The translations under genes and the position numbers were made by a program. The notes under the pieces were generated by a model. The model did no database searches. It saw nothing but the letters and a program-made list of their open reading frames with translations, and was not told the DNA's origin. DNA of 64,000 nt, taken from Taxillus chinensis (lineage: Eukaryota > Streptophyta > Magnoliopsida > Santalales > Loranthaceae). Positions 1,989 to 63,517 of this stretch are shown piece by piece. Position 1 is the first letter of the stretch. Each line of letters opens with the position of its first letter. The stretch is from NCBI GenBank assembly GCA_023512835.1, contig CM042087.1:11631715-11695714 (forward strand). Reading direction: 5' to 3'.

Positions 1989-2040
1989 GAGGAGAAGCCC
2001 CTCTGTTTTAGGTTTAGGGTTTGTTGCTCCACTAGCCGTC

Positions 2041-2042
<2 letters not shown>

Positions 2043-2080: not shown

Positions 2081-2086
<6 letters not shown>

Positions 2087-5660: not shown

Positions 5661-5799
5661 GTGTCACCCGCAGGAACCTCTTGTACCCTGCAAGGGGAGT
5701 GGGATCGTGAGGCGAGTCGAGCCAGGCCAGTGTTGGACCAGTGGGGTGCCATTACCCACAGGTTGGCGGCCCTGACCTTTGCTGAGGAGGGGAAGGTGG

Positions 5800-8838: not shown

Positions 8839-8840
<2 letters not shown>

Positions 8841-8882
<42 letters not shown>
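8841..8882. repeat. (CT)n microsatellite in L'
   Basis: About 20 CT dinucleotides, the reverse-strand equivalent of the GA run in the other two long LTRs. Confidence 0.95.
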
Positions 8883-8884
<2 letters not shown>

Positions 8885-10082: not shown

Positions 10083-10087
10083 TTACA

Positions 10088-11180: not shown

Positions 11181-11480
11181 GCGTGGGAGGTGGTTGTTGG
11201 CCAAGGGATAGTGATGTGTTTTCTTGTATTAGTTGTATGATTTGGTGTATTTGTATTGTCTTTTAGACATGTGTTCATATTTGTGATGTGTTTTGAGATG
11301 TGTATTTGTGACATGCGGATATGTGTTGTTATGGATTATGGTGGTACCTTGTTATGTCTTTGTTATGTCTTTGTGCGCGCGTGTATGACCCATTTGGGTG
11401 TTGTGGCTCGCCGTGTGGCAAATGGGTAACTTGTGTTTGTTTTCCTCGTATGTCATTTCTTTTCGAGGACAAAAAGTCTT
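11181..11480 (+). other. Non-coding 3' leader between pol and polypurine tract
   Basis: T/G-rich stretch with no credible ORF. It ends in TTTCGAGGACAAAAAGTCTT, a sequence type common just before the polypurine tract of this lineage. Confidence 0.7.
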
Positions 11481-11493
11481 AAGGGGGAGAGGA
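11481..11493 (+). promoter_or_regulatory. Polypurine tract of the Tekay-like element
   Basis: AAGGGGGAGAGGA directly precedes the TG of the 3' LTR. This is the expected primer for plus-strand DNA synthesis. Confidence 0.92.
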
Positions 11494-13300: not shown

Positions 13301-13305
13301 GCTCC

Positions 13306-21927: not shown

Positions 21928-21940
21928 ATCTCCCCCAATT
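21928..21940 (-). promoter_or_regulatory. Polypurine tract of Copia #2
   Basis: On the minus strand AATTGGGGGAGAT directly precedes the 3' LTR. Confidence 0.92.
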
Positions 21941-22070
21941 ATGGATATGCCTAAACCCTTTGTAATCTGATCTGGTAAGCGATGCAAACGAATATCATAC
22001 AGAATATACACCACAACCAATTTCATTGATCAGCAACTAAATACAAATCAGCCTTAATACAGATTTTTCA

Positions 22071-24823: not shown

Positions 24824-24866
24824 GGCAGATTTGATGGGAAGGAAAAGAGGAAAGGTGAGGTCTTGA

Positions 24867-26482: not shown

Positions 26483-29400
26483 CTATGCAGAGAAGTCGAG
26501 CATACCTAGTTGGAAGAGTAGTTCAGAAAACCTCGCATCGGGAGAGGCTTTGTAAATATGTTGCTAATTGATCTTGAGTGGCAACATGTTCGATGAAATA
26601 TGCTTTTTAAGAACATGATCGCGTATGAAGTGATACCTGACCTCAATGTGCTTCGTCTTAGGATGCATGACGAGGATTGTTGCTGATGGCAATTGCACTA
26701 GTGTTGTCACAGTAAAGTGGAATAGAGGACATGTTGAATCCGTAGTCGGTAAGTTGACTTTGCATCCAAAGTAGGCGTGCGCAAAGCAACTTCCAAGACG
26801 ATATATTCCGCCTAAGCAGTAGAGGTTGATACGAATTCGCTTCTTACTGAACCATGAGATCAATCTATTTCCAAGAAACCGACACGTACCGCTTGTGCTT
26901 TTCCCGTCGATGCGACATCCAGCGAAGTCGGCATCGAGTACCCCGATAAGGTGAAGTTGGACTCCTTTGAGTACCAGGAGTCCCAAATTCATCGTCCCTT
27001 TGAGATACCTTAAGATCCGTTTTACATGTAGCATATGTGACTCCTTGGGATTCGCCTGATATCGTGCACAAATGCAAGTTGCAAACATAATGTCTGGGCG
27101 ACTTGTTTGTAAGATGAGAGCAAGGATCCGATCATCCCTCTGTAGGTCACATTTACCGATATGCCGTCCATATCCGGATCTAACTTGGCACCGACAGGCA
27201 TTGGAGTTTTGACGGAGATGAACCTTCCATACCAAACTTCTTAATAAGATCGCGAGTGTACTTAGCCTGATTGATAAAGATTCCTTCCTTTAATTGTTTG
27301 ACTTCAATTCCAAGGAAGTAGGATAGTTCTCCCATCATGCTCATTTCAAACTTGCCTGTCATCAACTTAGCAAACTCTTCACAAAGCTTCGGATTTGTTG
27401 ATCCGAAAATGATATCGTCCACGTATATTTGTACGATCGAGTGTGTCCTTTCTCTTGTCGTAGAAATAGGGTGGTATCTATCTTCCCTTTTTGGAAGTTA
27501 TGAGCAAGTAGAATTTCGACCGGTGTGTCGTACCAGGCTCGGGAGCTTGCTTCAAACCATATAGAGCTTTCAAGTTTGTAGACAAGATGTCCCGCCTTAG
27601 GTTCAATGGGCCGGGAGGTTGTTCAACATACACCTCCTCTTGAAGGTCTCCATTCAGGAATGCGCTCTTGACGTCCATTTGATAAACTATGAAGTTTTCA
27701 TATGAAGCATACGCGTAAACATTCGGATTGCCTCAAGTCTTGCGCCAGGAGCAAAGGTTTCATCATAATCTATTCCCTCTTCTTGACGATATCCTTTGGC
27801 TACCAGCTGGCTTTGTTCCGGATTACTATTCCATCCGTATCAAGTTTGTTCGGAACACCCATTTAACGCCAATGACTTATCGAGACTTAGGCCTTGGTAC
27901 TAAGGTCCACACATTATTTCTCTTAAATTGATTCAGCTTCTTCTTGCATGGCTTCTATCCAGTTTGAATCCTGAAGAGCTTCATCTACCACCTTTGGTTC
28001 TATTTGAGATAGAAAGCATGAGTGAAGACTCATGTTTGAGGTGGCTGCTCTTGTTCTTACACCAACGGTAGGATCACCAATCACTTGATCCGAGGGATGG
28101 TTTCGAGTCCATCTATAATTCCGTGCGTGTGTTGGTTGTCCTTGAACAATTTGAAGCTCTTCCAGATTGGGTGGTTCAGTTGTATCAACTGGTTAGGCTT
28201 CGTCCGGAGTAGATGTTTCCGTATTTAGAGGTACGGATGAACCGATTGGTTCTTCAACACTGTTTCTTTCGAGTGTTAACTAGTCCGGACGGACTTGAAG
28301 GTGCTCCGGAATTTTGTGTATCTGCAGGAGTTTGTCCCCGGAGCTAAGTGGTAGTCCGGAGTTAAGTGGTAGTCCGGAGCTAAGTGGTAGTCCGGAGCTA
28401 AGTGGTAGTCCGGAGTTAAGTGGTAGTCCGGAGCTAAGTGGTAGACCGGAGCTAAGTGGTAGTCCGGAGTCCGAGTCATCCGTAGCATCATCCACAAAAT
28501 TCCGTTGTGTTTCGCGGATGCCACGTGGTTGGTCAGGATACCGGCCAGGATGTGTGGCAGGAATATTCATAAACTTTGAGTAATCGACGTTTCGTTTATG
28601 ACCTGCTGATTAGAATTTGAAGGACCGACTTTTGACCAATCGAGATTAGCTTCATCAAAGGTTACATGGATAGATTCTTCAACTTTAGAAAGTTTTCTAT
28701 TAAGACCCGATAAGCCTTGCTATGAAGTGAGTACCCGACAAAAATCCCATCATCGGATTTTGGTTCAAATTTATTTCGGGTCTCTTTGACATTGATCAAG
28801 ATATAGCAAGTACATCCGAAGGCTCTGAAATGTGAAATTGAAGGTTTTCGACCTCTCCACATCTCATAGGGTGTTTTCATGGTAGATTTATTTATTAGAG
28901 TTCTGCTCGAACATAGCAGAGCGTGGACACAACTTCACCCATAGACCGAGAGGAAGCATTGCCCCCTGCTAACATGGATCTACCAGCTTCAACTAAAGTT
29001 CGATTCTTGCGCTCAGTTACCCCATTTTGTTGTGGGGTTCTGGCGCAGAAAAGTCATGTTGTATGCCCTGTTCGAACAATATGATCTCATTTCGGAAAAA
29101 TCAAATTCTCGTACCATGATCACTCCTAATGCATTTAATGCTCGGTCCTTGTGAGTTGCTTATCCAGTTGAAGAGATCTACAAGATGTTCAAAAGTTTGA
29201 TCCTTTGATTTCAAGAACATCACCCATGTGTATCTGGTGAAATCATCGATAACCACAAGGGTATATCTCGCACCAGCCTAGTGATGAAAAGATATAGGAC
29301 CACATAGGTCCATACGAAGAAGTTGCAGAGGAGCAGCTATTGAGTTAATCGATTTGCTCTTAAAGCCGTGTTTGGTCCGTTTACCAAGTTGGCATTCTCG

Positions 29401-29990
29401 ACGAGAGTGTCTCTGGAGAACTTGAGTTTGGGTAGACCGGTGACAAGATCAAGTGATGCTAATTTAGACAAAGTCTTAAAGTTCAAATGTGCGCAACGCT
29501 TGTGCCATAACCAACTATCTTCATCTGTTGCTTTCGTGAGGAAACATACAGGGTCGAAGAATTATTTCTTAAGACCATCGAGTATATGTCCCCATCTCTT
29601 GATCCGGATAACTTAACATCTCCGGATAAGTTTTCTCTTCTTGTCTGGTGTTGGACAAAAAGGAAAACAAGAAATCCTTTGTCACATAGTTTATCGACAC
29701 TTAGCAAATTATGCTTTAAACCTTCGACTAGTGCAACTTTAGTGATTGATACACGCCGTTAGTTAAAGTGCCATACCTTGACAGTCTTACCTTTGGTTGT
29801 TGTCGCCATATGAGACGGATGGACCTTGTTTATCATTAACTTCTACAAGTAGAGTCTGGTCACCCGTCATATGTCCGGAGCATCCACTATCAAGGATCCA
29901 CTTGCTTTGATTTATCTTTAACTTCAAGTGATCCGGCAATTCATTCCAGAGATGCTCCCGAAAGACAACAATTTACACTTTTGGTGCCCA
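26483..29990 (-). pseudogene. pol: pol of Copia #2: protease, integrase, reverse transcriptase, RNase H
   Basis: In Copia order. Protease: LDSGCSGHMTGDQ with the DSG codons at 29883-29891. The integrase zinc domain lies near 29500 (a GTSVAHI-type stretch, frame-shifted). The integrase core is degraded; its C-terminal part is visible as MKTPYEMWRGRKPSISHF and GIFVGYSLHSKAYRV (28880-28720). A linker contains an 18-bp minisatellite (28338-28463). RT: MDVKSAFLNGDLQEEVYVEQ (27678), YGLKQAP, then YVDD at 27414-27425 and LSYFLGIEVKQ. RNase H: DADFAGC, then KTKHIEVRYHFIRDHVL, ending at TAG 26483-26485. Single-base indels break the frame at many points. Domain order with integrase ahead of RT is the hallmark of Copia. 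Confidence 0.92.
28338..28463. repeat. 18-bp minisatellite in the Copia #2 pol linker
   Basis: Seven full copies of CCGGAGCTAAGTGGTAGT (variants with GTTAAG) plus a partial eighth. On the minus strand it encodes a six-residue repeat (SGLPLS/N) between integrase and RT. The length is a multiple of three, so copy number can vary without shifting the frame. Confidence 0.93.
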
Positions 29991-29999
29991 AACTTGTTT

Positions 30000-32261
30000 C
30001 GGGCGGTTAGAGTGAGCAAAGATATTGTCAACATTTACGGATTTGATTTTGTTAGGACTCTTAGCTTTCCAAGTTGACATTAACTTGTTAGTTTCAGTTC
30101 TTCTTTTATTTGGGATTTCTTGGGAGAGACACTCCTTTTAGATTTAGATTTTGTTTTGCTCGAAGAACCCCTTTTATAAAACTGATCTTTATTTGATTGA
30201 AATTGATTACAAAGCCAGCCTATCGGATAAACTCCAACATTCATAGTGATAATGACCCATTTCCCTAGGATGGAACGGACACTATAATGTGAAGTACAAA
30301 CAGGGGATACAGTCTCTTAGATTTTTCTGCATTTTCTACTGCTCCACGTGGCCTAGTCCATTACGTTTGGGTGACGCGCTTGGCCCTAAATGCGTCAGCC
30401 TTAGCCTTGTCTTTCTTTTTGGGTGCTACGGTTTTGGCTTTAACTCGCAGGCCTTCCCTTCATCTTTAGTTACGGGTGCTCGTTTTAGGGAAGTGCAATA
30501 ACAGCCTCGGTTCACAATCATAAACTATGGTGCCACCTGAAATGAAACCATCCAACGGTTTAGATGTACTAACAGGATATAAGTTGGTTAGTTTAGGAGT
30601 GAAATCCGGAGGACACTCGGTGGCTTTAGCTATGGAGGTTGATGGTTCGTAACCTAGACCAGGTTTGACTCGAATGTCGTCGGGATCGATCCCAAAGGTA
30701 GAGGCTATTTCCCCGGATTTTAGCCACTTACGATTTATTTCTTTTTCCCTGTTCCAATTCATTTTCGAGTCTTTTAACTATAACTTTTAGGCCTGAGAGA
30801 TTGGTATTTAAGAGATGATTTTCAGCTCTTAGATCATGATACCAAGCTTCCTTTCCCCCAAGTCGACGACGTCCTTTTCGAGTCTATTAATGGTAAATTC
30901 GAGACGTTTATTCGACTTTCCATATCTTTGTACATTTGAGTTATTATTAGTCTCTCATTCTTTTCATGATCACATGCAATAGTAAGAGATTCTAATTTAC
31001 TCGGAGCTCAGAGAGTAGAAGGTACCTCGATTTGCCATGAGGCGACGTTCGGCTTAATGGTCGGCTCATCATCCGAGGATTCCTCCTCTTCTTCCGAGCC
31101 ACTCATGTATTTTGTCACGAGCGCCTTTCTCTTGCTCTCTTTGTTATCCGAGGTGGAGCGGCGAGAATTTACCTTGTCACTTTTCTCGGCCACCTTTGCT
31201 TTGGACCTGCATTCCTTGGCCCAGTGACTAGTTTTCCCACGTTGAAACATTCCTGGGAACTAGACTGGGTCGCTCCTTCCGTTGGAACGATGATGATGAG
31301 CGTCTTCGACCCCTTTTCTCGTTTTCGGTAGGAATCGCTCAAAGGATTTGACAAGAAGGGCTATCTCCTCCTCCTCGTCGGAATCGAATTGTCGGATACG
31401 TCCGTATCATCATTCCTCGCATGTTTAGACATTCAGTAGCTTTGAGAGCTACCCCCTTTTCTTTCCGAGCTATTTTTTCATCTCTCGTCGTAGTACTTAA
31501 ACCCGACTTCGTGAGTCCGTGACTCTCCATATAGTTCTTCAAGGGGAACATATCGCGTTTTTGTCCGATTGCATCCGGAGTTGTTTGGAGTAGTAGCGAT
31601 CCGGCAAGGAGCGAAAGAACTTGTCATTGATCTGGGATTGAGAGTAATGCTCATTGACGGTCTTCGGTTCAAGTATGAGCTTGCCGAATCTCCGATAGAT
31701 GCTTTCAAGTGATTCGCCCGGTTTATGATTAAAACTCTCAAAGTTCTCGTTCGAGAGTAGCGATCACATTCTCGTATCGGGGACCGACTCCCCTCATAGA
31801 GGATTGTCGTTTGTCCCAAACAGCTTTCGCCGTCGTGCAGCCCTGGACGTCTCGTGGAAAGCTTCGGAATCCAAGGACGATGTAACATAAGCCTGAGCCT
31901 TTTCACTAGCGCATTGCCAGGCTCTTTCATCGTTGGTAAGTTCAAAGATCGCCTTTGGCCTCCTTACTCCATGTTCTCCGATAGTCATCGGAATTGGAAT
32001 CTCCTGATGAAGACATGGCCACATAAGATGATCATGGCAAACCATAAACATCTTCATGCGAGCTTTCCACCGGGGAGAAAAGCTCAGGTGTGAATTTGGG
32101 CGGTTTCGTTAGAGTAAACCCGAACTCCCGTGGTTGAGAAGCGGTGGCAGCAGCAGGTTGTGGTGGATCGACATTTTCACCGCTGCTTCGATTCGGGATG
32201 GGCTCCCGTGCACCTCCGGAGTTAAGGCGAGTGTTGAAAAGCATCCGCTTTCTTCGGCCAT
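30000..32261 (-). pseudogene. gag: gag of Copia #2
   Basis: Start ATG at 32261-32259 (MAEESGCF...), about 50 bp after the primer site. Recognisable pieces in shifting frames: PPKFTPELFSP and WKARMKMFMVCHDH (about 32110-32030), ELTNDERAWQCASEKAQAYV (about 31950), VPLEELYGESRTHEVG (about 31540). A zinc knuckle at 31205-31250 reads C-F-N, then frameshifts into GKTSHWAKEC: a base is missing where the second Cys codon should be. A second knuckle, better preserved in Copia #3, lies near 30270. Gag forms the particle and binds RNA. Broken here. Confidence 0.82.
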
Positions 32262-32307
32262 TTCGAGATTGAAAGAGTGGGATCTCTACTAGAACGAAGT
32301 AGAACTT

Positions 32308-32318
32308 GCTCGATACCA
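32308..32318 (-). promoter_or_regulatory. Primer binding site of Copia #2, one base short
   Basis: On the minus strand TGGTATCGAGC, next to the 5' LTR end. The usual initiator-Met site is TGGTATCAGAGC, so one base is missing from CAG. Confidence 0.85.
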
Positions 32319-32319
32319 C

Positions 32320-33613
32320 TGATGGTCCCTTGGAGCCTAAAGGGGGGGGTGAATAGGCTCTTATTCGAACTCTTTCTTTTCTCTCAAGACACAAAGACTT
32401 ATCTAGTTTAAGTGATAATATCATCGGAAGATAACCAGATAGTGGAAGTATTTTGTTTTATTATCACAAAGTGATTACAACAAAATAGAAGCAAACACTC
32501 TCTTACACTCGTTTACAACTTTGAATTCACACACTAGCCAAGTGCCTTTTCTATTTTTGCACTTCTTCGCTCTAGCTCTCTCTTTTTTACAAGAAGTATA
32601 AGTATGAATATTTATACAAAACATTCCTAAGAGACAACCTTGGAACTTGAAGTTCCGGAATGCGTTCCGCACTAACTATCCCTTGGTAATCTATCCGCCT
32701 GTGACTCGCTGCGGATTCTGGAGCTCAAGATCTTGGATTCGAAGAGTATAAGTGTCTTTGTGAGTTCCGAGATACAATTAAGGTTGTGTCCACATATCCG
32801 GATGATCCACGTGTAAGATTCTTCTTGTTCTAAATGCATTCTTCTTACATCGGGACAAGACGAGCTGATAACTTTAAATGCGGTTTCATTTGAGCGATGT
32901 CTTCTTGGTCCGTGTAATTTTCCTTACTCCGTAGTTAATGAAGCTCGAACCTTACTCCGTGTCGTGGTTGCTTATTCCGTATCTATTCAAGTACTAGAAT
33001 CCTTAGTCCGTGTCGCGCTTCCTCACTCCGCATGTAAGTTCCTTACTCCGTATGTAAGTTTCTTACTCCGTATGTAAGTTCCTTACTCCGTGTGTAAGTT
33101 CCTTACTCCGTGTGTAAGTTCCTTACTCCGTATGTAAGTTCCTTACTCCGTGTGTAAGTTCCTTACTCCGTGTGTAAGTTCCTTACTCCGTGTGTAAGTT
33201 CCTTACTCCGTATGTAAGTTCCTTACTCCGTATGTAAGTTCCTTACTCCGTGTGTAAGTTCCTTACTCCGTATGTAAGTTCCTTACTCCGTATGTAAGTT
33301 CCTTACTCCGGGCGAGTAATAAGTCCGGATTCCTTACTCCGCATCTATTTTCCTTACTCCGCACTTATTTTCCTTACTCCGCACTTATTTTCCTTACTCC
33401 GCACTTATTGTTACTTGGTTATTTACCAAGTGTTTGACGACACTAACTCTTGTCCGGATCAGGATTATGTATCCTGTCCTTAGCTTTGCTCTCACGAGTG
33501 CATCTTTGGATTAGTGACATACCTTCTGCAATGATCAAATAAACACAAAAGATCTCAGATCAAATTACATAAGGCTTTAACGGCATTATCCAAATTCTGG
33601 GTTTGATCCAACA
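32320..33613 (-). repeat. 5' LTR of Copia #2
   Basis: 1294 bp, matching 20631-21927 except at a limited set of sites, most of them CAG, CTG or G-run positions. TATAAATA is at 32609-32616 (minus). The 20-bp array is at 33023-33302. Confidence 0.95.
33023..33302 (-). repeat. 14 x 20-bp tandem array in the Copia #2 5' LTR
   Basis: Same unit and same count (14) as 21339-21618, with the variant units in the same order. The array therefore predates this insertion. Confidence 0.95.
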
Positions 33614-50142: not shown

Positions 50143-50895
50143 TGTTGGTCCCTTGGAGCCTAGAGGGGAGTGAATAGGCTCTTATCGAAACTCTTTTCTA
50201 ACTCTTTGGCACAACACTTATCTGGTTAAGAGATAGAATCAATGCGGAAGATAACCAGATAGTGAAGTATTTTGTTTTATTATTAGTATGATAAGTACAA
50301 CAAAATGGAAGCAGACTAAAGCTTGAAAGCTTTTAGACCTACTTGGCAACTCTTTAACACTCTGTTTACAATGTACTCACACGCTAGCCTCTATGATCTC
50401 AATGAGCTTTGGTACATACACAAAACTATTACACGCTCACTCACGAACACTTTATAGAGTGTACAAGTGTTGCTATTTATAGAGACATCCAAAAGAGACA
50501 ACCTTGGAACTTGTTGTTCCGGACATTGTGCACATTTATTTTTTCTCGGAAATATCTCTGCCTCAATTGTTGCGGATGTGGTCTTCAAGATATTGGGTTT
50601 GTAACGCATAAGAGTCTTTGTAAATTCCCAAGTGTAGTTGAATTTGTGTCCACATATCCAGATGATCCACGTGTAAGATGTTTTAAGTTCTCAACAAGTT
50701 TGTCTTACATAGGGAAGCAGCGAGCTGGTGACTTTGAATACGAAGAGATAAGTTGAAGTAGCGTCTTCTTGAATCCAGTGTAAGGTTCCTTACTCCGTGT
50801 TAAACTAAGCTCGGATCCTTACTCCGTAATACTGATTGCTTACTCTGTATCAATTTGGTACTGGAATCCTTATTCCGTGTAAGCGCTTGCTAACT
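50143..50895 (-). repeat. Partial Copia LTR (Copia #4), cut by Athila #2
   Basis: Starts (plus reading) TGTTGGTCCCTTGGAGCC like the solo LTR at 47169, and matches it through about 750 bp, including TTACTCCG copies. It breaks at 50895 where the Athila LTR begins. The rest must be to the right of the window. Whether it was solo or part of a full element is unknown. Confidence 0.88.
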
Positions 50896-52693
50896 TGAAT
50901 AAATTGTGTCTATAGGTTTTGCAGCAAGTGCATTGGTCAAGTAATAAAATGGAGTATTATGACTCCGGTTGTCGAACCCACAGGGAGGCAACAATTGTTG
51001 TTAACCAATGAACACTAAGCTAGCAAGTTGAATTTATGTCTGGACAATTGATTTTTGAGTTTTAAATTAAAGTATAAGTCTTGAACATGCAAAATGCAGA
51101 AACTATTGAGATTGTAACACAATTCGAAGATAACAATGAATTAAAGGATCTAGGGTCACAATTTCACCACCCAATGCCTGATAATATTCTGGTTATGGTA
51201 CTTGCTTAAAAACATTTAATTAATTCCAAGTTTATAATGGTCATCACCCACTGCCCTAACACTTGGTCCATGAAAAGGGAAGTTTAAGTCTTTTAAACCA
51301 CTTGGTCCGTGAGAATAAAAGTTTTCAAAGGTAAACAACCAATTCGACAAATACAGACTTGATCCATCATATAATGTCAAATCTAGTTCACCACATTCCA
51401 CCCTAGACAAGGGCTGAAATAGCCTAACCATGCATACATCAGACTTTGCATTAAACCCAAATAAACTAATTAAAAGCCCAGAATTTCATATAATAGCAAG
51501 CAGAATACCAGAACATTACAAGACCTTGGGGGCTACATTGCTCCCCTAGAAATAAGGTTTTACCCCATAATTAAGTTTACAAACCGAGAAAGTTCAAAAT
51601 AAAACATGATTACAGTACCAATAGAGAGAGAGAGAGAGAGGAATAGAGATGATTAACAGCCCCAATACTTCTCCTTCTCTTCGCCAAAGAACCCCTTGCC
51701 GTCAAACTCAAGCGCTGCTTCTAACTCCAAGAACGTCTCTCTCTATCCTCTATCTACGTCTCAGCCTCCAATAATTGATACGTTGCTGCCTCCAAGATCC
51801 CTCCTCTTACAGGGCTGCAGGTATTGTACAAAGTGTGCCCTAATGCTAGCTATTGTCGCTACACAAACGACGTAGTTTTGGTAAGTGACCCTTATTCTTC
51901 ATTCAAACCTTGAAAACACCTTAAACCAAGCAGAATTTGATCAAGCTCCAGAAGAGAAAAATCATCAGCATAACAAAACAAAGGTGACTGTGCAAAAATA
52001 ATCTTGCCCGTGACAAAGGTCATTGTCACGGGAACCTCCATTTGCTCTGAAACTTCACCCAAGACTTTATCACATTATATAGAAGCCTTCCATGCAAAAA
52101 CATCCTTGCCCGTGACAAAGGTCATTATCACGGAAATTTCCATTTGCTCTGAAACGTTTATGAGAGGTAGATGGTATCATTTGGAGCAACTTTTGTTCTG
52201 CATGTGAGAACATATGAAGCCTCCTACTTGGTCAAAAAAATCAAATCCCAATGTCACGTGCAAAATCTTTTGTTGTCCTTTTGCTCTGAAATTTTTATGG
52301 AAGGTAGAGGGCATTGGAGCAACTTTTCCTTCCGCACGTGATATTGTTAAGACCATCTTCATGATCCAAAAAATCAAAACGTGCTTGCTCAGCACTGATA
52401 GTGTGAAGAGACCTCTTGCAGCCTTGTCGCTTGTAGCCTTCAAAATGCCTCATTTTGAGCTCATAAGTTGCCACAAGCTCCCTCTTTAGGAGATAGAGTA
52501 GTCTAGCTGATGACTAGAGAAGAAATCATCCAAAAACCTGCCCAAAATAGCTCAAAAACACATATATAGCACAAATAGTGTCTTTTTAGGGGTTAGAGCT
52601 AATATATATGAAATATGGTACTAAACAAGCTCTAAACATGCTCTTAAATACCCTAAATAGGCTCTAAAATAACGGCATAAATGCACGTTATCA
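50896..52693 (-). repeat. 3' LTR of Athila #2 (1798 bp)
   Basis: Plus reading TGAATAAATTGTG to GCACGTTATCA. It matches 63169-63517 over the length available. It holds CAAACGACGTAGTTTTGG (51864-51881), a GA run (about 51625-51640) and a duplicated CCCGTGACAAAGGTCATT phrase (52008 and 52110). A polypurine-like AAGTGTGGTATATT precedes it on the minus strand (52694-52707). Confidence 0.93.
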
Positions 52694-54058
52694 AATATAC
52701 CACACTTGAACCATTGCTTGTCCTCAAGCAAAAACACAATCAGGCAAAAAAGAAAACAAACACTCATTCAAACATGAAGAAAAATAAAATAACAAACAAA
52801 AGAGTCATGTTTCCTAAGTATGAAACCTTATCATGCTGAAATGGGCATTTTAGTAAGCAAGACGAATTATAATTTAGCTCATTCATGTTCGTACCTCTAA
52901 GTCCAACAACCATGCAGTCTCATTACTGAAAATCAATTATCAATAAGCATTTCATGCTAAAATAGAACTTAGCTACCCTTAAAGTCCTTACCAAGGTCGG
53001 AACGCCTCACTCAAATTTAATTTTTCTTCTCTCTCATGCTCAAGCCCAAGATCAATACCTAACAAAAATAGGGGTAGAAAAACTCCTCACTACATTCTCC
53101 ATTAGCTATTGCTTAAGTTCTTGCCAAGCATACATGGGAGTTCCAAACCGTGCTCATAAAAGAAAACACACACTCTATTCTACTTACTGATAAACACTTG
53201 GAGCTAAAGATTTAAGCTTACACTTTCAAAACAAATTGAAAAACAAAACAACTTAGCCATTATGGCTGCAACACGAAAACAAAAACACATATAAACAGTA
53301 AGCCATTGTGGCTTTTATTCTGGTGAACACTTTTTCTTTTCACACTTCTTTTTAGTAATAACCTTACAAGGTTGCATTTTATGCTCTCCCTTGATGGATT
53401 ATTCACTCTTTTTTCTTTTTTATATACTCACCTGTTATTTAATTTTTTTTATTTGCCTTTTTCTTTGCTGGAAGGAGAGAAAAATGTATCTCAATCCCTT
53501 TATTACATGACACATAAGGCTCTTTGGCCTCTTACGGCACAATGACACCAACACCAAGCACTGAGCACAAATAAGTAGTCATCATGCATACTTAACTCCT
53601 ACCATTAAATAACTAATGTTGAATGCAGAGAGGAGCAAAGCAAACTATTACCCATACCCAAAACTGTCACTCAAGGGCTAGAAAGAGGCTGCTGATCTTA
53701 GTTTTTTGTTGCATTTTCTTTTTCCCTCAACTTTAAAGGCCACTAAGGTTTATCATAATATGTCATGCTCATTTAATATTCAAATGCCAGCTCCACTAAC
53801 ATGGTGATCTCATTCACAAGGTACAGACATGAATAAACCAAATCATAATACACTTTAATTACTTAAATTAAAATTCAGCCAAAAGTGCATACTTTATTAT
53901 CCATGGCTCTCCACATACAAAACACACATTCAAACACGAAAACAATTTACGCAACCATTACACAACCATAAGGACAAGTAAATGGCGCAAGCCACCCCCA
54001 CACCACACTTAAGAAATTGCTATGTCCTCAGAGCGTGGGATAAGGGAAAGGAAGACAC
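52694..54058 (-). other. Athila #2 3' untranslated region
   Basis: AT-rich, no ORF with family resemblance on either strand. The last bases on the minus strand, GAGGACAAGCAATGGTTCAA followed by a short purine-rich stretch, are the usual Athila lead-in to the 3' LTR. Confidence 0.7.
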
Positions 54059-56382
54059 TTACCTTTGAGTGGGTAAGCTGTAAAAGAAGATAACCTCGGC
54101 CACCATACTCCTAAGGCGCGCTACAAATTCAGTAGATCTTTCTCCTGTAAGTGCCCAGGTATCCTTATGCTGCAGCAAAGCTAGCAAATAATAACATACA
54201 AAAATCCCACAACTGAACTTGTCAGGCTGTTGGGGAAGCTCCATTTCATTGAAGTGCACGAGAGGGAACTTGGATGTCAACAACCCCTCTTTCTTGAGTG
54301 CTTCTTTGACCTTTTTCAAGAAACCATGGACTATCTTCTTCTTTCGGGTAGCAAATCCATGCGCTTGGCAAGGATCATACAATACCACATGTCCCACACT
54401 GAGGTCCAACTGAAGAAGCACGAAATGGCGGTCTACTAGGACAGGGATGAGGACCTCTTGCACTTGATGCCAAGAACGATGACCTTCTGCAGCTCCATTT
54501 ATTCTTTGACGAAGAACATGCTCTGCCAGAGGTTGCTCATACAGTTCACACAACATTATGGAAGTGTATTGTGCCATAGGGTAGTCATTAGGTTCTGCCT
54601 CCACTACATGTCGCATGGTTTTGCAAAAAAGATCAACATCGTCAGCACATAAATATTCGTTAGCTAAGATCTGCTGCAGGTAGGACGATGTGAATACTTC
54701 AGAATCCCTAGCAAATCGCGCTTGCCAAGCTCCTCCTTGAAGAAACTGCTCAAATGCTGTCGTGGCCTCAGGAGTTGACAAGGCTGGATTGAGAGTCACA
54801 TATACTAGCTTACCTAATAAATCCTCTTGTGCAGCCTCTGAAGAAACACCAGACCACGATTGAAGAGGCTCAATCAGTGGAATGAGAGCACGAGAAGAAC
54901 TGGAGCCTGCTTGAGGTTCGAATGAAGCTGGTGTTACTGGATGAAAGTATGGCTGATAAGCATGAGTCTCCTCCTCCTGTGGGTAGTGTGGCTACTTAGG
55001 TGTTTCCTTTGTCTGATCAAACTCAGGCTGGGCTGAAGGTACTATCTCTTCAGAAAGATCTACAACTTGTGGTTTTAGAGACTTCTTCTTTTTGCCCAAA
55101 GCTTTCCAAATTTTTCCCAGGAGTCCCTTCACTTCTTTTTGCTCTTTGATTAAGTGGGATTGGCTCTTTTGCAGTTGCCCGATTTGTTGTTTGGTCACTG
55201 CATGTTCTTCTTGAAGTTGATCTGTTCTTCACTTCAGGTCTTCATAAGATGAGCCAAAAGGTCGATCAGGAGCTTCCCATGCTCTTATTGACAGTCATGA
55301 AGTTGTTTGCTGGTCTTGGGATAGAAATTCCGACAACTCCTCTAACTGGATACGAGTTATGTGGCCATTGGTGAAGGCCCAATTTATCACCTCAGCTTCA
55401 CTTATAACCTGCCCACTAATTCCTTGAAAGAAGTTATACACATCTGCCGTATGAACATTATATTGCATGTAGAGAGCAGTCAACTGGTATATATGCTATT
55501 TTCTTGCACTCATGGGAGTATATGTGTCTCTAGAATGTTCAGTAGGCCTTTCCATGTGCACACTTTGCCGTGAGGGCTGTGGTGCAGTGCGAGTACTAAT
55601 GCCCCATTTCCCTCTAAAACTAACCCCTAGAGCCCCTTCGGGTTGAAGGACTCTCAATATCAAATTAGATGGGAAGATGGATGTGTCCATATGAGCACAC
55701 AACTGTGCGTATTGGAATTTAAAGATCATGCTCAGCATCCTACCATACAACTTTTTATTCACCTCTCGTTCCCAAAGATTAAAAATCTCAGTTGCCCAGT
55801 CCACATGAAGTTGATGATCAATGCAGTACATGAATGCAAGATGAGATTTAGGCACTGAATCCATTCCACTAGTTTGCAGCAATAAACATTTTCCGACCAA
55901 GTGAGCAAGGCATCTATATTTCCCCGCAAAGCCATTTTTTCTATACTATCTTCTCCTACCCAAGTCCTAACTAGAGTTGAAAGCTCTATCATAAGCTCCT
56001 AAGCTTAATTTGGGAAATTCATGTGAAGGGGTTGGGAGATCAAAGCAATCTCTAATAATAGCAGGGGAAATATAAACTAGGAATCCTTGCACTTCTCCAA
56101 TCAACTCATCATCATCATCATTTATGTAAACAGAATTGTAGAACTCTTGCATGGCAGGATAGAGTAAATCATTTCTTGCAGAGACTAACCTTTGTTAACC
56201 CAGGGATTCAAGCTTTACTGCTATCTCTTCTACCCAACCGATGTTTGATGCCGCCAGAACATCCCAATCTAAGACATGTCCAATGACAATGTCCTCTTCT
56301 TGACGGAGCTTCTCTTGGTCTGAGGTTGGGGATGAAATTGCTGAGGATCCTGGTCCTTGTATGCCCTTCTTGTTTGCACCAT
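54059..56382 (-). pseudogene. Accessory ORF of Athila #2: plant transposon protein domain-like, coiled coil, Ulp1/C48 peptidase
   Basis: Probable start MVQTRRAYKD at 56382. The N-terminal part (shifted frames) reads GHVLDWDVLAASNIGW, then EFYNSVYINDDDDELIGEVQ and IIRDCFDLP, aligning with HLVDW...RAALNLP of the Copia ORFs. Later DWATEIFNLWEREVNKKLYG. Then heptads (DQLQEEHAVTKQQIGQLQKS) with a KKKK patch. From about 54991 the frame is open to TAA at 54059. Within the last 246 codons: His125 (DRHFVLLQLD), Asp142 (LYDPCQ), Gln190/191 (LPQQPD) and Cys197 (SCGIFVC, codon 54209-54211), the full C48 set. A TAG at 54992-54994 and stops upstream break the whole ORF. Desumoylase-type activity is inferred from the family; target unknown. 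Confidence 0.85.
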
Positions 56383-57553
56383 ATTGCCAAACAAAGCCTT
56401 CTTAGTGCTTGTAGGATGGATAGAGATGAACTGAAATGTTTGTGAGAATTGCAGCTAGGGTTGCTTAACACAATATGAGAATTGAGGAAATTGGTGTGCT
56501 TTTATAGACCCGAAAAACGCCGTCAAATGATGTCACGTGCAGAAGCAATAATGCTCAAAACATGGCCAGCTAGCTACCACAAAACTTTAAGCCCCAAAAG
56601 ACAAGAAACCCACTTGCCCGTGACATCCCATTGTCAGGGGCAAGGCCAATTTGGTCCATATTTTGCCTGCAACCTCCAAATGTACTATAATGCCAGAAAA
56701 GTGTCTGCATGGCACATGGTCAGATGTCACGGGCATCAATTTAAAGCATTAGATGAACTCTAATTTCCTTTAGATTTTTCATGGAAGTGGGTCCCGCTTT
56801 CATGAACAAAACGTGTCAGTTACTTTTCCTAAAATCCAGCCTTGTAACACATCATCTGGGATTTGACCATGTTATAGTGCTCGGAAGATGTCGCGTGTAG
56901 AGTGAAAAATATTCTAGATAGTTCCACCTAGCGACCACCGAAATTTCGGAGCAAAAAGTCAAAAAATCCAATTGCACGTGACATCCCATTGTCACGGGCA
57001 AGGCCAATTTAGTCCAAACTTTGCCATCAAGTCACGGATGAACAGTAGTGCCATAGTAATGCTGCACGCAACAAGTCCTGATGTCACGGGCATCGATTTT
57101 TAGCCTTAAATGAGGTCAAAATATTCTGAATCTTTACAGGCTGGCGGCTCATTCTCCAAGGAACAAAACGTGTCACTTTGTTTGCCTCATATCCAACCGA
57201 ATAATCCCTTAATTCATGTGCTTGATATGTCAACAAAACTTGGTGGGCCCCTTGGATTTTTAATCAATTGGGCTTGGACTTGGACCTTACAATGATTGCC
57301 TAATATCCACATCCAATGGCTCAAGCTATAACAAATGACATTCATCATAGTGAAGCCCAAGACCTCACACCTGCAATCACAGTCAGACGACAACCACATA
57401 CTACTTTAAATAGAACACCCCCTACAAAAGAAATGGTAAAACAAGTAATCTAAATATAAAAACAAAAATAAAAGTGCAAAACTGAAAGGATACACCATGG
57501 GTTGCCTCCCATGAAGCACTTAGTTAAGGTCTTTAGCTTGACCATCCCCTCTG
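56383..57553 (-). other. Non-coding gap between Athila integrase and accessory ORF, with an imperfect duplication
   Basis: No ORF of known type. Two segments (about 56520-56790 and 56880-57160) are imperfect copies, each with TGACATCCCATTGTC and a GATGTCACGGGCATC phrase. Similar CCCGTGACA phrases occur in the LTR. Confidence 0.65.
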
Positions 57554-58690
57554 TCAAGTTGTGCTCAGAGTGAAATGATTAACTTCCTTAACATGGTGCT
57601 GAATGTAGTATGGCTTCACACGTTGACCATTTACTTTGAAGATTTGCCCAGAGGTTGATTGGAGTTCCACACTGCCATATGGGAAAACCTTTATAACAGT
57701 ATAAGGCCCCATCCACTTAGATCGCAGGTTCCCAGTGAAGAGTTTAATTCTGGAATTAAAGGGAATCACCTCTGCCTGGTTCAATGGTAGAGGGGCTGAT
57801 CTTCTTATCATGTCTAAGCTTAGACCTCTCCTTGTACATCTTAGCACTCTCATAGGCATTGAAGCAAAATTCCTCCAACTCATTTAGTTGGTGCAATCTT
57901 AGTTCAGCAGCAACATTGGGATCCATGTTCATCTTTTTAACTGCCCAAAATGCCTTGTGTTCCAATTCAACAGGCAAGTGGCAGGCCTTTCCATACAGTA
58001 GACGATAGGGAGACATTCCAATGGGCATTTTGAATGCTGTGTGCTAAGCCCACAACGCCTCATCGAACTTTAGAGACCAATCTTTTCGGTTGCCTCCCAC
58101 TGTCTTCTCTAAAATTTGCTTGATCTCACGGTTTGAGACTTTAGCTTGGCCGTTTGCTTGTGGATGATAGGCTAAAGTACGCCTATGTTGAACTCCATAT
58201 TTGTTTAAGAGCTTTGCAAAAAGCTTATTGCAGAAGTGACTCCCTTCATCTTTGATAATTGCTCTAGGTGTTCCAAACCTACTGAATATGTTGCGGCGAA
58301 GGAACTTGGTTACCACCTGAGCATCATTCTTCCTAGTGGGTATAGCTTCAACCCACTTTGAGAGGTAATCAACAGCTAGAAGGATTTAGGAAAACCCATC
58401 TGATGGTGGGAAAGGTCCCATGAAGTCGATTCCCTATATATCAAAAAGTACTACTGGCATAATTCCAGTTTGGGGCATCTCTTGCTTCCTTGTAATCCCT
58501 CCTGTTCTTTGACACTGATCACATGACTTAACAAAGGTGTATGTGTCCTCGAACATGGTTGGCCTGTAAAACCCACTTTGTAGGATCTTTGCCAACGTTC
58601 TTTGCATTCCTAAATGGCCAGCATAGTCAAATGAATGACAATGCCTTAGTATGCTGTCCACTTCCTCTTCTGGCACACATTTTCTGATGA
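57554..58690 (-). pseudogene. pol: Integrase of Athila #2, catalytic Glu changed to Lys
   Basis: Zinc domain: LRHCHSFDYAGHLG and CDQCQRTGGI. Core: GIDFMGPFPP (first Asp) after a TAG at 58434-58436, [23 protein letters not shown] (second Asp), then [14 protein letters not shown], where the expected Glu (as in Athila #1 QAEVSN) is Lys, codon 58140-58142. Then [17 protein letters not shown], a stop, and [19 protein letters not shown]. The C-terminal part (LFTGNLRSKWMGPYTV) follows a frameshift near 57780, ending at 57554. The Glu-to-Lys change alone should abolish strand transfer. Confidence 0.92.
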
Positions 58691-58769
58691 TCTGATCAAC
58701 ACATTGCCTATAGATAATAGGCTCATCCCAAATATATCTTCTTGCATTAAAGAGGAAGCTCTTCTTTTG

Positions 58770-60297
58770 CTAATAAGTGAACTCAGTAGGTACATAGTCA
58801 CATGCATGGTAGTTCACTCTATCAGCAAACCATGGCGTCTGTGCTTCAACTACAAAGAGCTGCTCATCAGGGAAGGTGTCAGAAATAGTAGAACCTTTAG
58901 TGCTACCTTCCCCTAACTCCAGCCTCGATAAATGGTCCGCCACAATGTTGGAAGTCCCCTTCAAGTCTTTAATCTCCAGGTCAAACTCTTGGAGTAATAA
59001 AACCCAATTGATCAACCTGGGTTTAGCATCATTCTTGCTAAATAAGTATCTCAAGGCAGCGTGGTCAGTGTAGACAATTACCTTAGTTCCCAATAAATAC
59101 GACCGAAATTTATCACAAGGAAACACCACAGCGAGTAACTCCTTCCCTGTAGTAGTGTAATTGAGCTGGGCCTCATTGAGTGTGCGACTGGCATAATATA
59201 TTGCCCTAAAAACCTTGTCCCACTTCTGCCCAAGCACCGCTTCGACTGCATAGTCGCTGGCATCACACATCAGTTCAAAAGGTTGATTCCAATCTGGAGC
59301 CACAATTACTGGTGCTGAGATTAATCTCTCCTTCAGCTCAGTGAAGGCATGTAGGCAATCCTCAGAAAAAATGAAAGGTGTGTCCTTTTCCAATAGCATG
59401 CTAAGGGGCTTTGCCACTTTAGAAAAATCTCTAATGAAGCGTCGATAAAACCCAGCATGACCCAAGAAGCTTCGGACACCCTTCACATTCAGCGGCGGAG
59501 GTAAACTCTCAATAGTAGAGATTTTTGCTCTATCTACTTCCAGCCCAGCAGTAGAAACTTTATGGCCGAGGACGATACCCTCTTTGACCATAAAATGACA
59601 CTTTTCCCAGTTCAATACCAGGTCTTTTTCCTCACAACGGATTAGTACCGTTTCCAAGTTCTTTAAACATGTGGAGAAGGAAGATCCAAAAATGGAAAAG
59701 TCATCCATAAACACTTCCATTATATCCTCCACTAATCCATGGAAGATCGCCATCATACACCTCTGAAATGTAGCAGGTGCATTACATAGTCCGAACGGCA
59801 TCCTTTTGAAGGCAAACGTGCCAAACAGGCACGTGAACGTTGTCTTCTCCTGATCCTCTGGCGCCACAGCAATCTGATTGTAGCCTGACTAGCCATCGAG
59901 GAAAAGGGTAGCCTGCTAACCGGTCCAGCATTTGATCAATGAAGGGCAGTGGGAAGTGGTCCTTGCGAGTTGCTGTGTTTAATTTGCGGTAGTCAATACA
60001 AACACGCCACCCTGTCATCGTCCGGGAAGGAATGAGCTCATTTTTCTCATTTCTTATAATGGTCATACCTCCCTTCTTTGGAACCACATGCACTGGACTC
60101 ACCCATGGGCTGTCGGAGATAGCAAAGATAATACCAGCTTTTCTCCACTTGAGAATTTCTTTGCCTACAACCTGTTTCATCGCAGGATTAAGCCTGCGCT
60201 GTCGTTCAACAGTGGGCGTGTGAGTCTCCTCCATCAAAATTTTGTGCATGCAAATTGCTAGACTGATCCCTTTAATATCATCAATAGTCCATCCCAA
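58770..60297 (-). pseudogene. pol: Reverse transcriptase and RNase H of Athila #2
   Basis: First part 60297-59860: GWTIDDIKGISLAICMHKI, FAISDSPWVSPVHVVPKKGG, VCIDYRKLNTATRKDHFPLP. A frameshift near 59890 moves coding to the frame with [27 protein letters not shown] and [10 protein letters not shown] (catalytic Asp pair, about 59712-59732). RNase [59 protein letters not shown]. Open to the stop at 58770. Domain order and length are normal for Athila; one frameshift inactivates RT. Confidence 0.93.
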
Positions 60298-60639
60298 AGC
60301 CTTCTTATGACTTCTGAGTACCCTTAACAGTTGTTGGCTTTCTTCAGCAGCTAGTGATACAGTAACTATTACTGGGTACCTTCCTGTTGAATCTAAAAAT
60401 TCATATTTTAGATGTTCAGGGAGTTGTTTCAGTTTTGGAAGTTATTCTTTAAGCGTAGAAGGTTCTTCGGAAGTTGAACGTTGCTCCTCAACTTGATCAA
60501 CCACAGCTTCCAGTTCTTTTTCTGTGCTTAGTTCAACAAATTCAACCTGTTGCAGTTCGTGGTCAAGGCTCTCGGTGACTATGTTCTCTTCAAAGTATTC
60601 TTCGATGAAGTTTGCTATGTCATCCACCCAAAAGTAGCT

Positions 60640-61339
60640 TCAATAGTCATCCTGCCTTCTCATTGATTTCTCCATGTTAAATATCATGGCCTCTTCATCC
60701 ACACGAAGAGTCAGCTCTCCTGAACTCACATCAATGAGTGCACGGCCTGTTCTCAGAAATGGCCTGCCCAAAATGAGCTGCACTCCTCTATCCTCTGCCA
60801 TATCTAGCACTACAAAGTCTACAGGGAAAATGAACTTATCCACCTTCACTAACACATCTTCTATAATCCCCTCCGGCTTCCCAATGGATCGGTCAGCAAA
60901 CTGAAGGGAAATGGATGTATCCTTGCAGGCCTAATTGTCTGTACATTGACTTTGGCATTAAATTTATACTTGCCCCCAAATCGCAAAGAGCTTGCTCCAA
61001 GTGTGAGCTCCTGATTGTGCAAGACAGCGTGAAACTACCCGGATCTTTAAGCTTTGGTGGTAGCTTGTGCTGCACCATAGCACTAATCTCATTGGTCAGT
61101 GCTACCATCTCGCAATCTTCGTAGCGTCTCCTGTTGGACAGCAAGTCTTTTAGGAATTTGACATACTTGAGCATTTGTTCTAAAGCTTCAACGAAGGGAA
61201 TGTTTACTTCTAACTTCTTGAACATCTCCAAAAATTTGCAGAACTGAGTATCCATCTTTTGCTTCCTTAGCCTTTGAGGATAAGGCATAGGAGGCTGATA
61301 AGGTGCTGGCTTTACATTTTTAGGCTGACTAGCTGCCAC
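60640..61339 (-). pseudogene. pro: Protease region of Athila #2
   Basis: Reads RLRKQKMDTQFCKFLEMFKK, then VNIPFVEALEQM, then ALCDLGASINLMPKSMYRQL near 60965-61010 with the DLGAS active-site variant typical of Athila. A frame change follows; FVVLDMAEDRGVQLILGRPF (about 60760-60810) is the C-terminal half. This aspartic protease would mature Gag-Pol. The gap between the two open stretches (about 60856-60900) marks the frameshift. Confidence 0.88.
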
Positions 61340-62973
61340 CTTTTCCTTCTCTTGTTGCCCAGCACTGCTCTCTGCCCTTTCTTCTTCGTTATCCTTTGTT
61401 GATTCTGCCTCAGTATTCTATTCTCCATGATCAATTGAGGTTTCCTCTCTTTCTTTAGGCTGAAGCTCTTTCCCACTTTAGAGCATAATAGCCTTACAAT
61501 GCTCTCTTGGGTTAACTTCAGTGTTGCTTGGGAAACTGTTTGATGAAGAGGGTTTCACTGCATTTGCTAGTTGACCTATTTGCTGTTCTATATTCTTCAT
61601 AGCTGTACCTAGGTCTTGAACAGAGGTGGTAAGGGATTCAATTCGTGTTTCTCCTCTGCTCAACCGGTCAGTTGCCTGCTTAGCAAATTGGTAGAAAAAA
61701 TTCCTTATTTCTTCATCTTTAGCTTTCTCTTTATCCTCCTCTTTCTGCTGTGGAGGTCTTTGAAATCCTGGAGGGAGTTGATTATTAGGTTGAGATCCTT
61801 CACCATAGTGTGGTGCTCCATAGGTTTGAGCTTTGTTCTACTCTGCCATACATATGGTTGCTGAGCACTTCCCTGCCCTTGCTGAGTCTAATAATTATTT
61901 GAGGAGGCAGAATTCTGATATTGGCGCTGATATCCACCTTTGTTTCCAATATACAAAGAGCATCCTCCTGAGCTGGGTCTAATGTGTCATCTCCTCCAGT
62001 ACTTTGCTCTGCTCTCCCTTCCATCCGTATAGACATGACTGACATTTGTTCAGTCAGCATGTTCATCTTTTTGGTTAACTCATCAAGCTTGGTTTGAGTT
62101 AGAAACCGCAGTTATAGACTCTGATTTGGAATGAGTTTTTCTGTCAGTGGACCATTGGTAATTTGACATTGCCATCCTCTCAAGCAACTCCACTGCATTA
62201 GCCGGTTCCATCATCATGAAGGCGCCACCAATTGCTGCATCAACCATGTTTCGGATTGAAGGTTGCAGGCCCATGAAGAAAGACTCTACCTACAGCCATT
62301 CTGGTCTTCCATGGTTAGGACAACGCCTAACTAAGTCCTTAAACTTCTCCCATGCTTCATAGAGAGATTCATCAGTGTGCTGGCTGAATTGGCTTATTTG
62401 GCTCCTCAGGTGCATCACTCTTGTAGGCGGGAAGTATTTGGAAAGAAATTTCTCCACCATTTGATCCCAGGTAGTAATGCTCCCTATTGGTAATGACTGG
62501 AACCAGCCCAGCGCTCTATCCCTCAACGAAAAAGGAAACAGTCGCAGCTTAATCGCGTCATCTGTTACGCCATTGATTTTGATCGTGTCGCATATTTGCA
62601 AGAATCTCACTAGATGAATGTGAGGATCATCCAACGCTGATCCTCGAAATGCTTTGTGCCCAACCATCTGCAGTAATGCAGGCTTCAACTCAAAGTTATT
62701 TGCTTGGACAGGCACCCTTCTAATGCCTGAGTACTCATTTGACAGTACAGGTCTAGCATAATCCACGAAGGTCCAAGGCTGATAACCTCCTTGTCCATTG
62801 TGTCCCTGATCTTCTCTTGCTCTGTTTTCAGCCATAATTTCTTCACACAAGGTATTTAAGCCTTCCAACTGCTGTTCAGCTGCAGCTAACACCCTCTGAG
62901 CCCTTCACTGCTCTCGCAACGTCCGTTCGATTTTGGGATCGTATGGCAGTAACTCTCCTCTGGTGTGACGCAT
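61340..62973 (-). pseudogene. gag: gag of Athila #2
   Basis: Start ATG at 62973-62971 (MRHTRGELLPYDPKIE), in frame with the main ORF after an in-frame TGA at 62905-62907. Core gag domain: FRGSALDDPHIHLVRFLQIC, LFPFSLRDRALGWFQSLP, FLSKYFPPTRVMHLRSQI, DESLYEAWEKFKDLVRRCPN (about 62640-62310). After a stop at 62288-62290 coding resumes with PSIRNMVDAAIGGAFMMM (62270). Farther on, a Gln/Asn-rich stretch and a short coiled coil (ESLTTSVQDLGTAMKNIEQQ, near 61640). Gag forms the particle. Several stops make this copy dead. Confidence 0.88.
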
Positions 62974-63139
62974 ACACAGATGAATTTTCTCAAACACCTA
63001 TGGTGCACCCCTGAAAAATAGCAAAAACAAAGAAATACCAGGTAACACCGCACTAGAAAAATAAAAGAAATTAAAAATCCAGATCACAAATAAACTTAAG
63101 CACCTAATGTCACCTAATCCTAACAACGTTTGGTTTGCC

Positions 63140-63157
63140 TCCCCGGCAACGGCGCCA
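63140..63157 (-). promoter_or_regulatory. Primer binding site of Athila #2 (tRNA-Asp type)
   Basis: On the minus strand TGGCGCCGTTGCCGGGGA, 11 bp from the LTR end. This is the Asp-tRNA site used by Athila and related Gypsy elements. Confidence 0.92.
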
Positions 63158-63168
63158 AAAACTTAACC

Positions 63169-63517
63169 TGAATAAATTGTGTCTATAGGTTTTGCAGCAA
63201 GTGCACTGGTCAGGTAATAAAATGTTGTATTAAGACTCCGGTTCTCGAACCCACAGGGAGGCAACAATTGCTGTTAAGCAATGAACACTAAGCTAGCAAG
63301 TTGAATTTATGTCTGGACAATTGATTTTTGAGCTTTAAATTAAAGTATAAGTCTTAAACATGCAAAATGCAGAAACTGTTGAGATTGTAACGCAATTCGA
63401 AGATAGCAATGAATTAAAGGATCTAGGGTCACGATTTCACCATCCAATGCCTGATAATATTCTGGTTATGGTACTTGCTTAAAAACATTTGATTAATTCC
63501 AAGTTTATAATGGTCAT
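63169..63517 (-). repeat. 5' LTR of Athila #2, inner end only
   Basis: Plus reading from TGAATAAATTGTG, nearly identical to 50896-51243, until interrupted at 63517. The remaining LTR lies beyond the right edge. Confidence 0.93.

Follow-up and report, generated by a model that had tools for sequence, protein, structure and literature searches.

The window, by which we mean the whole 64-kb stretch of DNA analysed here (positions 11631715-11695714 of contig C4 in a 521-Mb assembly), contains nested LTR elements, and three of these, Copia 1, Copia 2 and Athila 2, carry an accessory open reading frame (ORF). The features on which the argument depends are the following.

3..1357, + strand: Copia 1 accessory ORF, 5′ part, with the N-terminal domain (profile match about 24-647) and a low-complexity linker; in-frame stop at 759-761
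1358..13301, + strand: Gypsy-type (RVT_1) LTR element inside Copia 1 and separate from the accessory module; LTRs 1358-3215 and 11494-13301, 93% identical
13306..14655, + strand: Copia 1 accessory ORF, 3′ part beyond the inserted element, with the heptad/basic part and then a C48-like region with H and D (13997-14485)
14794..16152, + strand: Copia 1 3′ LTR, with the junction TGGGGGAG-AT/TG
20631..33613, − strand: Copia 2 element; 5′ LTR 33613-32320 and 3′ LTR 21927-20631, 97.9% identical; GTCCC at 20626-20630 and 33614-33618
22071..24823, − strand: Copia 2 accessory ORF, frameshifted, with N-terminal domain, linker, heptad/basic part and C48-like region with SCGAFVC
26567..29972, − strand: Copia 2 pol remnants; Pol_BBD 29972-29790, SH3 28934-28665, RVT_2 27497-27183
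50891..63517, − strand: Athila 2 element; LTRs 63517-63164 and 51246-50891, 95.2% identical; primer binding site (PBS) TGGCGCCGTTGCCGGGGA at 63157-63140
54059..56382, − strand: Athila 2 accessory ORF, broken; N-terminal pieces 56194-55970 and 55945-55499, heptad part and KKKK 55228-54995, C48 region 54991-54062
57557..62904, − strand: Athila 2 gag and pol; gag 62904-62293, reverse transcriptase (RT)/RNase H 59888-58773, integrase 58385-58047

Elements and accessory ORFs in the window

Both superfamilies of LTR retrotransposon are represented among the carriers. In Copia 2, whose exact LTR ends were set by eye, the GTCCC on either flank is a 5-bp target duplication and an RVT_2 match of 62.1 bits at 27183-27497 identifies a Copia-type RT, while in Athila 2 the RVT_1, RT_RNaseH, rve and Retrotrans_gag matches of a Gypsy element all lie between the LTR pair. 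The Athila 2 PBS is presumably of the tRNA-Asp type, consistent with Athila, the putative lineage name taken over from the first-pass annotation. The LTR pairs, together with the target duplication of Copia 2 and the PBS of Athila 2, therefore place both accessory genes between pol and the 3′ LTR. The gap from pol to the ORF measures 1.2 kb in Athila 2 and 1.7 kb in Copia 2, and from the end of the ORF to the 3′ LTR there are about 140 bp in Copia 1 and Copia 2 and 2.8 kb in Athila 2. Copia 1, whose pol lies outside the window, is a relative of Copia 2, their 3′ LTRs being about 77% alike. Both have TGGGGGAG-AT-TG at the 3′ LTR, a polypurine tract (PPT) octamer followed by AT/TG as in the Sirevirus rules, which passages of PMC2829016 give without the letters of the octamer. 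The Copia 2 LTR also holds 20-bp repeats with CCG that resemble the Sirevirus motifs in passages of the same paper, and its PBS, CA-GTGG-TATCGAGC, is near to the rule (TATCAGAGC after CA/ATTGG or AGTGG) and inexact. Because the several identical upstream octamers that are a further Sirevirus trait are absent, the sense strand of Copia 2 having the terminal one only, we call this element Sirevirus-like, not Sirevirus.

Other features of the window accompany these elements. The element at 1358-13301 (+) contains RVT_1, RNase H and H2C2 domains and, at 8523-9554, an inverted copy resembling its own LTR (84%), and an 18-bp tandem array of 7.3 copies at 28338-28469 (−), one frame of which reads as PLSSGL-like units, lies in Copia 2 pol between the integrase and RT pieces. 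Gypsy integrase fragments occur at 16728-16958 (−) and 33610-34186 (+); because the second directly adjoins the 5′ LTR of Copia 2, that element may itself sit inside a Gypsy element. Further Copia pol fragments and Copia 2-like LTRs (68-80%) are found at 42398-43967 and 48541-48651 (+) and at 47169-48442 and 50143-50895 (−), the last adjoining the Athila 2 3′ LTR, and about 17.7 imperfect 29-bp repeats at 35903-36411 lie away from the described elements. In the Athila 2 spacer immediately 5′ of the accessory ORF there is a 73% direct duplication (56529-56695 and 56887-57053, −), a possible promoter or leader.

The first-pass annotation had read the three accessory regions as ORFs of 770-920 codons with a common order of conserved N-terminal region, low-complexity linker, heptad region with a basic patch, and Ulp1/C48-like peptidase. 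We translated them in six frames, unmended, and compared only the open pieces. Its motifs and coordinates proved correct, with HLVDW...RAALNLP in 3-758 (+), HVLDW in 56401-56198 (−), RDCFDLP in 56194-55970 (−), PQQPDKFSCGIFVC in 54991-54062 (−) and DGDSCGAFVC in 22406-22128 (−), and the layout was recovered. The open frames were not: stops in frame, frameshifts or both interrupt all three ORFs, and the element at 1358-13301 further divides that of Copia 1, so 770-920 codons describes spans, not frames. In the C48-like region of Copia 1 the frame is broken past VPQ and the catalytic cysteine is lost; the Pfam C48 stretch of Athila 2 covers about 54466-54101 (−).

Homology of the accessory gene between Copia and Athila elements

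The two ends of the gene are related across the superfamilies. Copia 1 piece 3-758 aligns with Athila 2 56281-55523 (tblastn E=4e-24, 27% identity, 255 columns), and piece 13583-14485 aligns with the Athila 2 C48 region 54991-54062 (blastp E=7e-7, 23%, 122 columns). When 1000 shuffles were made of each pair, scores of 182 and 86 stood against shuffled maxima of 47 and 59, a second N-terminal piece reached 65 against 50, and short pieces were marginal (50 against a maximum of 50, 50 against 47, 52 against 51). Four of the 11 piece pairs did no better than shuffles, namely the first 68 aa of Athila 2, the mid region and both coil pairs; coil against coil scored 18 with a shuffle mean of 22.8, giving no detectable homology. 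Because the ends beat their shuffles and the coil and mid region do not, we regard both ends as homologous and the middle as alike in type only, and the four-part order proposed earlier is thereby reduced to two homologous domains and a similar layout of linker and heptad part between them.

Profiles led to the same result. A Copia-only profile (six rows) and an Athila-only profile (27 rows for the N-terminal domain, 32 for C48) matched each other at E=1.8e-42 in the N-terminal domain (213 columns, 24% identity) and at E=1.1e-31 in C48 (201 columns, 25%), so the N-terminal regions, whose being unrelated had been named as grounds for dropping the idea of one module, are related by pairwise search and by profile alike. 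Single-family HMMs recovered selected main pieces of the other family at E 4e-25 to 4e-41 (N-terminal domain) and 2e-8 to 6e-35 (C48), values that, like the other cross-family E-values, apply to one comparison or a small set, and the best reversed decoy had E=0.3 or weaker. Chance likeness of motifs was considered and is ruled out by the shuffles, the reversed decoys and the profile comparison. On these alignments it is very probable that one accessory gene, of shared origin, lies between pol and the 3′ LTR of both kinds of element, as the first-pass annotation had proposed.

Substitution patterns bear on whether the gene has been maintained. Copia 1 against Copia 2 gives dN/dS 0.205 (95% range 0.17-0.26; 805 codons), with 0.14-0.33 by part, and the other two frames, used as a control, give 0.93-2.99. 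In the Athila 2 family, with the copy L049 as reference, the ratio is 0.35 for L052, 0.17 for L048, 0.20 for L050 and 0.19 for L051; for 13 further copies synonymous sites are saturated against L049 (dS at least 1.7 or not computable) and the ratios are unreliable. As far as codon comparison can tell, the versions of the accessory gene show purifying selection. Because both ends are homologous and the gene has been under such selection, at least one of the superfamilies acquired it, either from its counterpart or from a shared source.

Within the window the C-terminal domain is identified directly in Athila 2, where the last 310 aa match Peptidase_C48 (PF02902) with 44.6 bits against a cut-off of 20.7. 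Copies outside the window score 50.3 (L018), 52.1 (L019), 52.9 (L020), 49.7 (L022) and 34.9 (L049 and L052). The search against Pfam that had been suggested thus succeeded for Athila 2 and failed for the Copia pieces of the window, which, like the L021 3′ ORF, have no C48 match alone; we assign the Copia regions to C48 because they are homologous to that of Athila 2 and because the open Copia copies L018 and L019 do match. Compared with the PDB by sequence, the Athila 2 domain found SENP1 (E=0.0013); the match was weaker when L049 (E=0.014) or a two-row profile (E=0.2) served as query, and L018 found nothing at E<=0.1. A template-free model built from two sequences was of low confidence (pLDDT 47.5, pTM 0.46). 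Foldseek placed deSUMOylating proteases first among its neighbours (5lnb, SENP5, SENP3, Ulp1; E 5e-5 upward, TM-scores mostly 0.3-0.5), and the model was counted only because these agree with the sequence matches. Structure prediction, another proposed check, therefore yielded a tentative placement nearest to SUMO proteases for C48 and nothing for the N-terminal domain, the model of which (pLDDT 44.4) was too poor and was discarded.

The catalytic residues are largely retained among alignment rows with a letter at the position: H in 40 of 42, D in all 42, C in 37 of 41 and Q at −6 in all 38. Most rows are near copies of one another. All four residues occur together in 32 of 43 rows covering half or more of the columns, two sparser rows having been dropped. 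The cysteine is replaced by tyrosine in four of 31 Athila rows and is gone in Copia 1, and its column is not outstanding, 14% of C48 columns being conserved at least as well. Open copies probably encode an active thiol protease.

The N-terminal domain, of about 215 aa, resembles Transposase_32 (PF20167) weakly: every match falls below the 45-bit cut-off, the best being 33.0 bits (L020), followed by L021 (22.6), L052 (19.8), L049 (19.6), Copia 1 (17.1) and the Athila 2 piece (12.4). At most, this domain would be a distant relative of Transposase_32, not a member.

Genomic copies and possible routes into both superfamilies

A genome search with the Pfam C48 profile yielded 150 scored matches among 4308 candidates. 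Fourteen of the 150 were retrieved, 11 of them with wider flanks (L010, L011/12, L013/14, L015, L016 and L018-L023). With the Athila 2 C48 piece as query, 128 scored matches came out of 7634 candidates, and 32 of the 128, window included, are stop-free within the match. The N-terminal domain lies upstream of C48 (E<=1e-5) in 27 of 30 loci of the Athila 2 family, the window among them, examined with 1.5-kb flanks, which do not take in pol; L031, L038 and L040 have no such upstream domain at that threshold. Among the 11 more widely flanked places, the N-terminal domain precedes C48 on the same strand in nine, with a weak match in L010 and a partial one in L019; at L021 and L023 the C48 copies that were matched have no such domain upstream. 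The search for intact copies called for in the first-pass annotation was productive, yielding open frames with C48. L049 and L052, of the Athila 2 family, each have one unbroken 774-aa frame from stop to stop; both parts also lie in a 1059-aa open frame of L018, downstream of Copia pol, and in a 674-aa one of L020, downstream of Athila-type pol, where the N-terminal domain lacks its first residues. Homology of both ends and their identical order in open copies beside Copia and Athila-type pol bear out the description of a single module. Same-strand Copia pol precedes the module in L018, L019, L014 (pol partly missing) and L011 (5.8 kb off), and same-strand Athila-type pol does so in L020 and L022, while no LTR element could be assigned to the module copies L010, L015 and L016. 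Presence of the module in a chromovirus, so read from the integrase at L016, was considered and rejected, the element's LTRs (592-984 and 5718-6109) stopping short of it. Viral contigs scanned with three window pieces showed no relatives. The highest C48 score of the 150 matches (84 bits) belongs to L001 (G000:C191:93103-96594), which falls in one long open frame, containing acidic and charged stretches, of a small contig; the N-terminal profile was unmatched in the 3.5 kb fetched, and this may be another transposon or a foreign contig.

How the gene came to be in both superfamilies was addressed with two LG+G4 trees, one built from 15 N-terminal rows and the other from 18 C48 rows, all of them module copies from one genome, with the Athila rows reduced to seven and rows of less than half coverage omitted (four N-terminal, two C48). 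Neither tree recovers the Copia copies as one clade. The Copia group of the window sits closer to Athila rows than it does to the remaining Copia groups; support for this placement is weak (57; 65-69) and the branches are long. Forcing a single Copia clade costs 1.1 (N-terminal) and 2.6 (C48) log-likelihood units and is not rejected (AU p 0.38 and 0.16). N-terminal domains from different superfamilies share 24-30% identity, and those from deep groups inside one superfamily 26-32% (Athila 2 with L022, 52%); for C48 the figure is 21-30% in either comparison (Athila 2 with L022, 68%). The RT pieces of L018 and L019 are 57-66% identical to that of Copia 2, those of L020 46-68% to that of Athila 2, and L011 gives 50-60%. 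Because module identities are about as low within as between superfamilies and the RT pieces are more alike, the gene either evolves fast or moves. Its presence in both superfamilies calls for one transfer or more, or else for two captures.

Exchange of one module or repeated capture of one gene had been offered as alternatives; one module is upheld, and the trees do not decide between the routes. That a stand-alone gene with the N-terminal domain and C48, belonging to the host or to a DNA transposon, was captured independently by Copia and Athila lineages would account for the scatter of Copia copies in both trees, for module identities that are similarly low within and between superfamilies where RT is mostly 46-68% identical, and for the three module copies with no assignable LTR element. 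We nevertheless consider it rather unlikely, since one Copia clade survives the AU test, fast evolution by itself yields the same identities, and a stand-alone gene holding both parts was not identified. The frequency of nested insertions in the window, and the chromovirus at L016 found beside the module and not around it, raise the further thought that a third element bearing the ORF landed in unrelated Copia and Athila copies. This is highly improbable, given that the module lies 3′ of pol in several lineages, that the N-terminal domain accompanies C48 in nearly all Athila 2-family loci, and that repeats of at least 100 bp are absent within the 8-kb stretches of L018, L020 and L022.

A candidate protease function

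Overall, the likely explanation is a shared gene for an Ulp1-type protease that works inside the cell and is aimed by its other parts. The protein would be an intracellular, perhaps nuclear, enzyme and not an envelope. Its N-terminal and coiled parts would dock it on chromatin or on element nucleoprotein, where the C48 domain could remove SUMO or a related modifier locally, and removal of the modifier might ease transcription or integration of the element. KKKKK follows the coil in L049 and L052. Because no basic run is present in L018, L019, L020 or the L021 5′ ORF, nuclear import is not a general prediction.

Two other functions have to be weighed against the shared Ulp1-type protease. The C48 domain might mature the element by cutting Gag or another element protein, leaving SUMO untouched, as adenovirus-type proteases do, and weak matches by sequence and by fold do include adenovirus protease (E 0.27, 0.075 and 0.011). 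SUMO proteases are the best matches, however, and LTR elements of such kinds normally already encode an aspartic protease in pol, so that we think this improbable. An envelope-like membrane protein for cell-to-cell spread would suit the position and sense of the gene, which are those of the env-like genes of Athila and Sirevirus elements in the parts of PMC7264820 and PMC2829016 that describe them. Hydropathy shows no clear transmembrane segment, with no Kyte-Doolittle (KD19) window above 1.6 in five of seven proteins and one such window each in the C48 core of L020 and the heptad part of the L021 3′ ORF, and the C-terminus is a protease domain. We accordingly disfavour an envelope protein as very improbable; because of the hydropathy, 'env-like' seems a misnomer, and passages of PMC7264820 already call the ENV-like function controversial.

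A precedent for the shared Ulp1-type protease comes from VANDAL MULEs. According to passages of PMC13317346 and PMC5735166, VANC of VANDAL elements causes sequence-specific hypomethylation and KIU (Kaonashi) versions bear Ulp1, in transposon accessory genes that, like the one here, combine conserved domain(s), variable regions and Ulp1 with long retention; the review (PMC13317346) calls the precise role of the KIU Ulp1 domain unknown. VANDAL elements are DNA transposons, in contrast, and their VANC has DUF1985 and DUF287 in passages of PMC5735166, domains missing from the Pfam matches here; DUF1985, the mark of VANC/KIU, was not among the matches of 19 proteins or pieces at E limits of 1, 0.1 and 1. 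Because VANC and KIU offer this analogy, an anti-silencing role through removal of SUMO or ubiquitin may be entertained, tentatively.

Among LTR elements, the 3′ ORF of sunflower Athila 14 (487 aa, PMC11728184) likewise lies in sense past pol, has partial similarity to Transposase_32, already reported there, and is predicted nuclear; in contrast to our gene, the text of that report has no Ulp1, SUMO or peptidase and its passages make no Copia link. The Sirevirus env-like gene, as described in passages of PMC2829016 and PMC3599292, shares the Copia setting, the sense and the position between pol and the 3′ LTR, but is characterized there as envelope-like and highly variable, whereas the gene here encodes a C48 protein and is homologous to one of Athila type. 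Ulp1 domains of mobile elements are also described in passages on nematode Utopia/NeSL non-LTR retrotransposons (PMC4640811) and Ginger1 transposases (PMC2836005), there within the main element protein, in other element classes and in animals. Bdelloid rotifer ORF3 genes, as described in PMC5408684, are accessory ORF types common to unrelated retroelement classes, as here; theirs are esterase and exonuclease, not Ulp1, and the hosts are animals. A C48/Ulp1 gene in plant LTR elements was not found among the matches listed, in the passages of open PMC full texts or in those of the reviews PMC7264820, PMC11963269, PMC6317226, PMC12786077 and PMC13317346; passages of PMC5821449 list an Arabidopsis 'Ulp1 protease family protein (DUF1985)' separately from its Athila entries.

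Plant env-like genes have long been without an agreed function, and the catalytic domain supplies a testable one. It is conceivable, if doubtful in its full extent, that the 'envelope-like' genes of Sirevirus-like and Athila elements are at least partly one ancient gene, exchanged between superfamilies, for a targeted SUMO protease that lifts host silencing and is convergent with the VANC-Ulp1 of VANDAL. A gene common to Copia and Gypsy elements would mean that accessory genes are shared across superfamilies in plants, as PMC5408684 describes for rotifers. LTR elements would join MULEs as plant mobile elements with an Ulp1-type protease, the second kind to do so, and this would suggest SUMO as a battleground of silencing.
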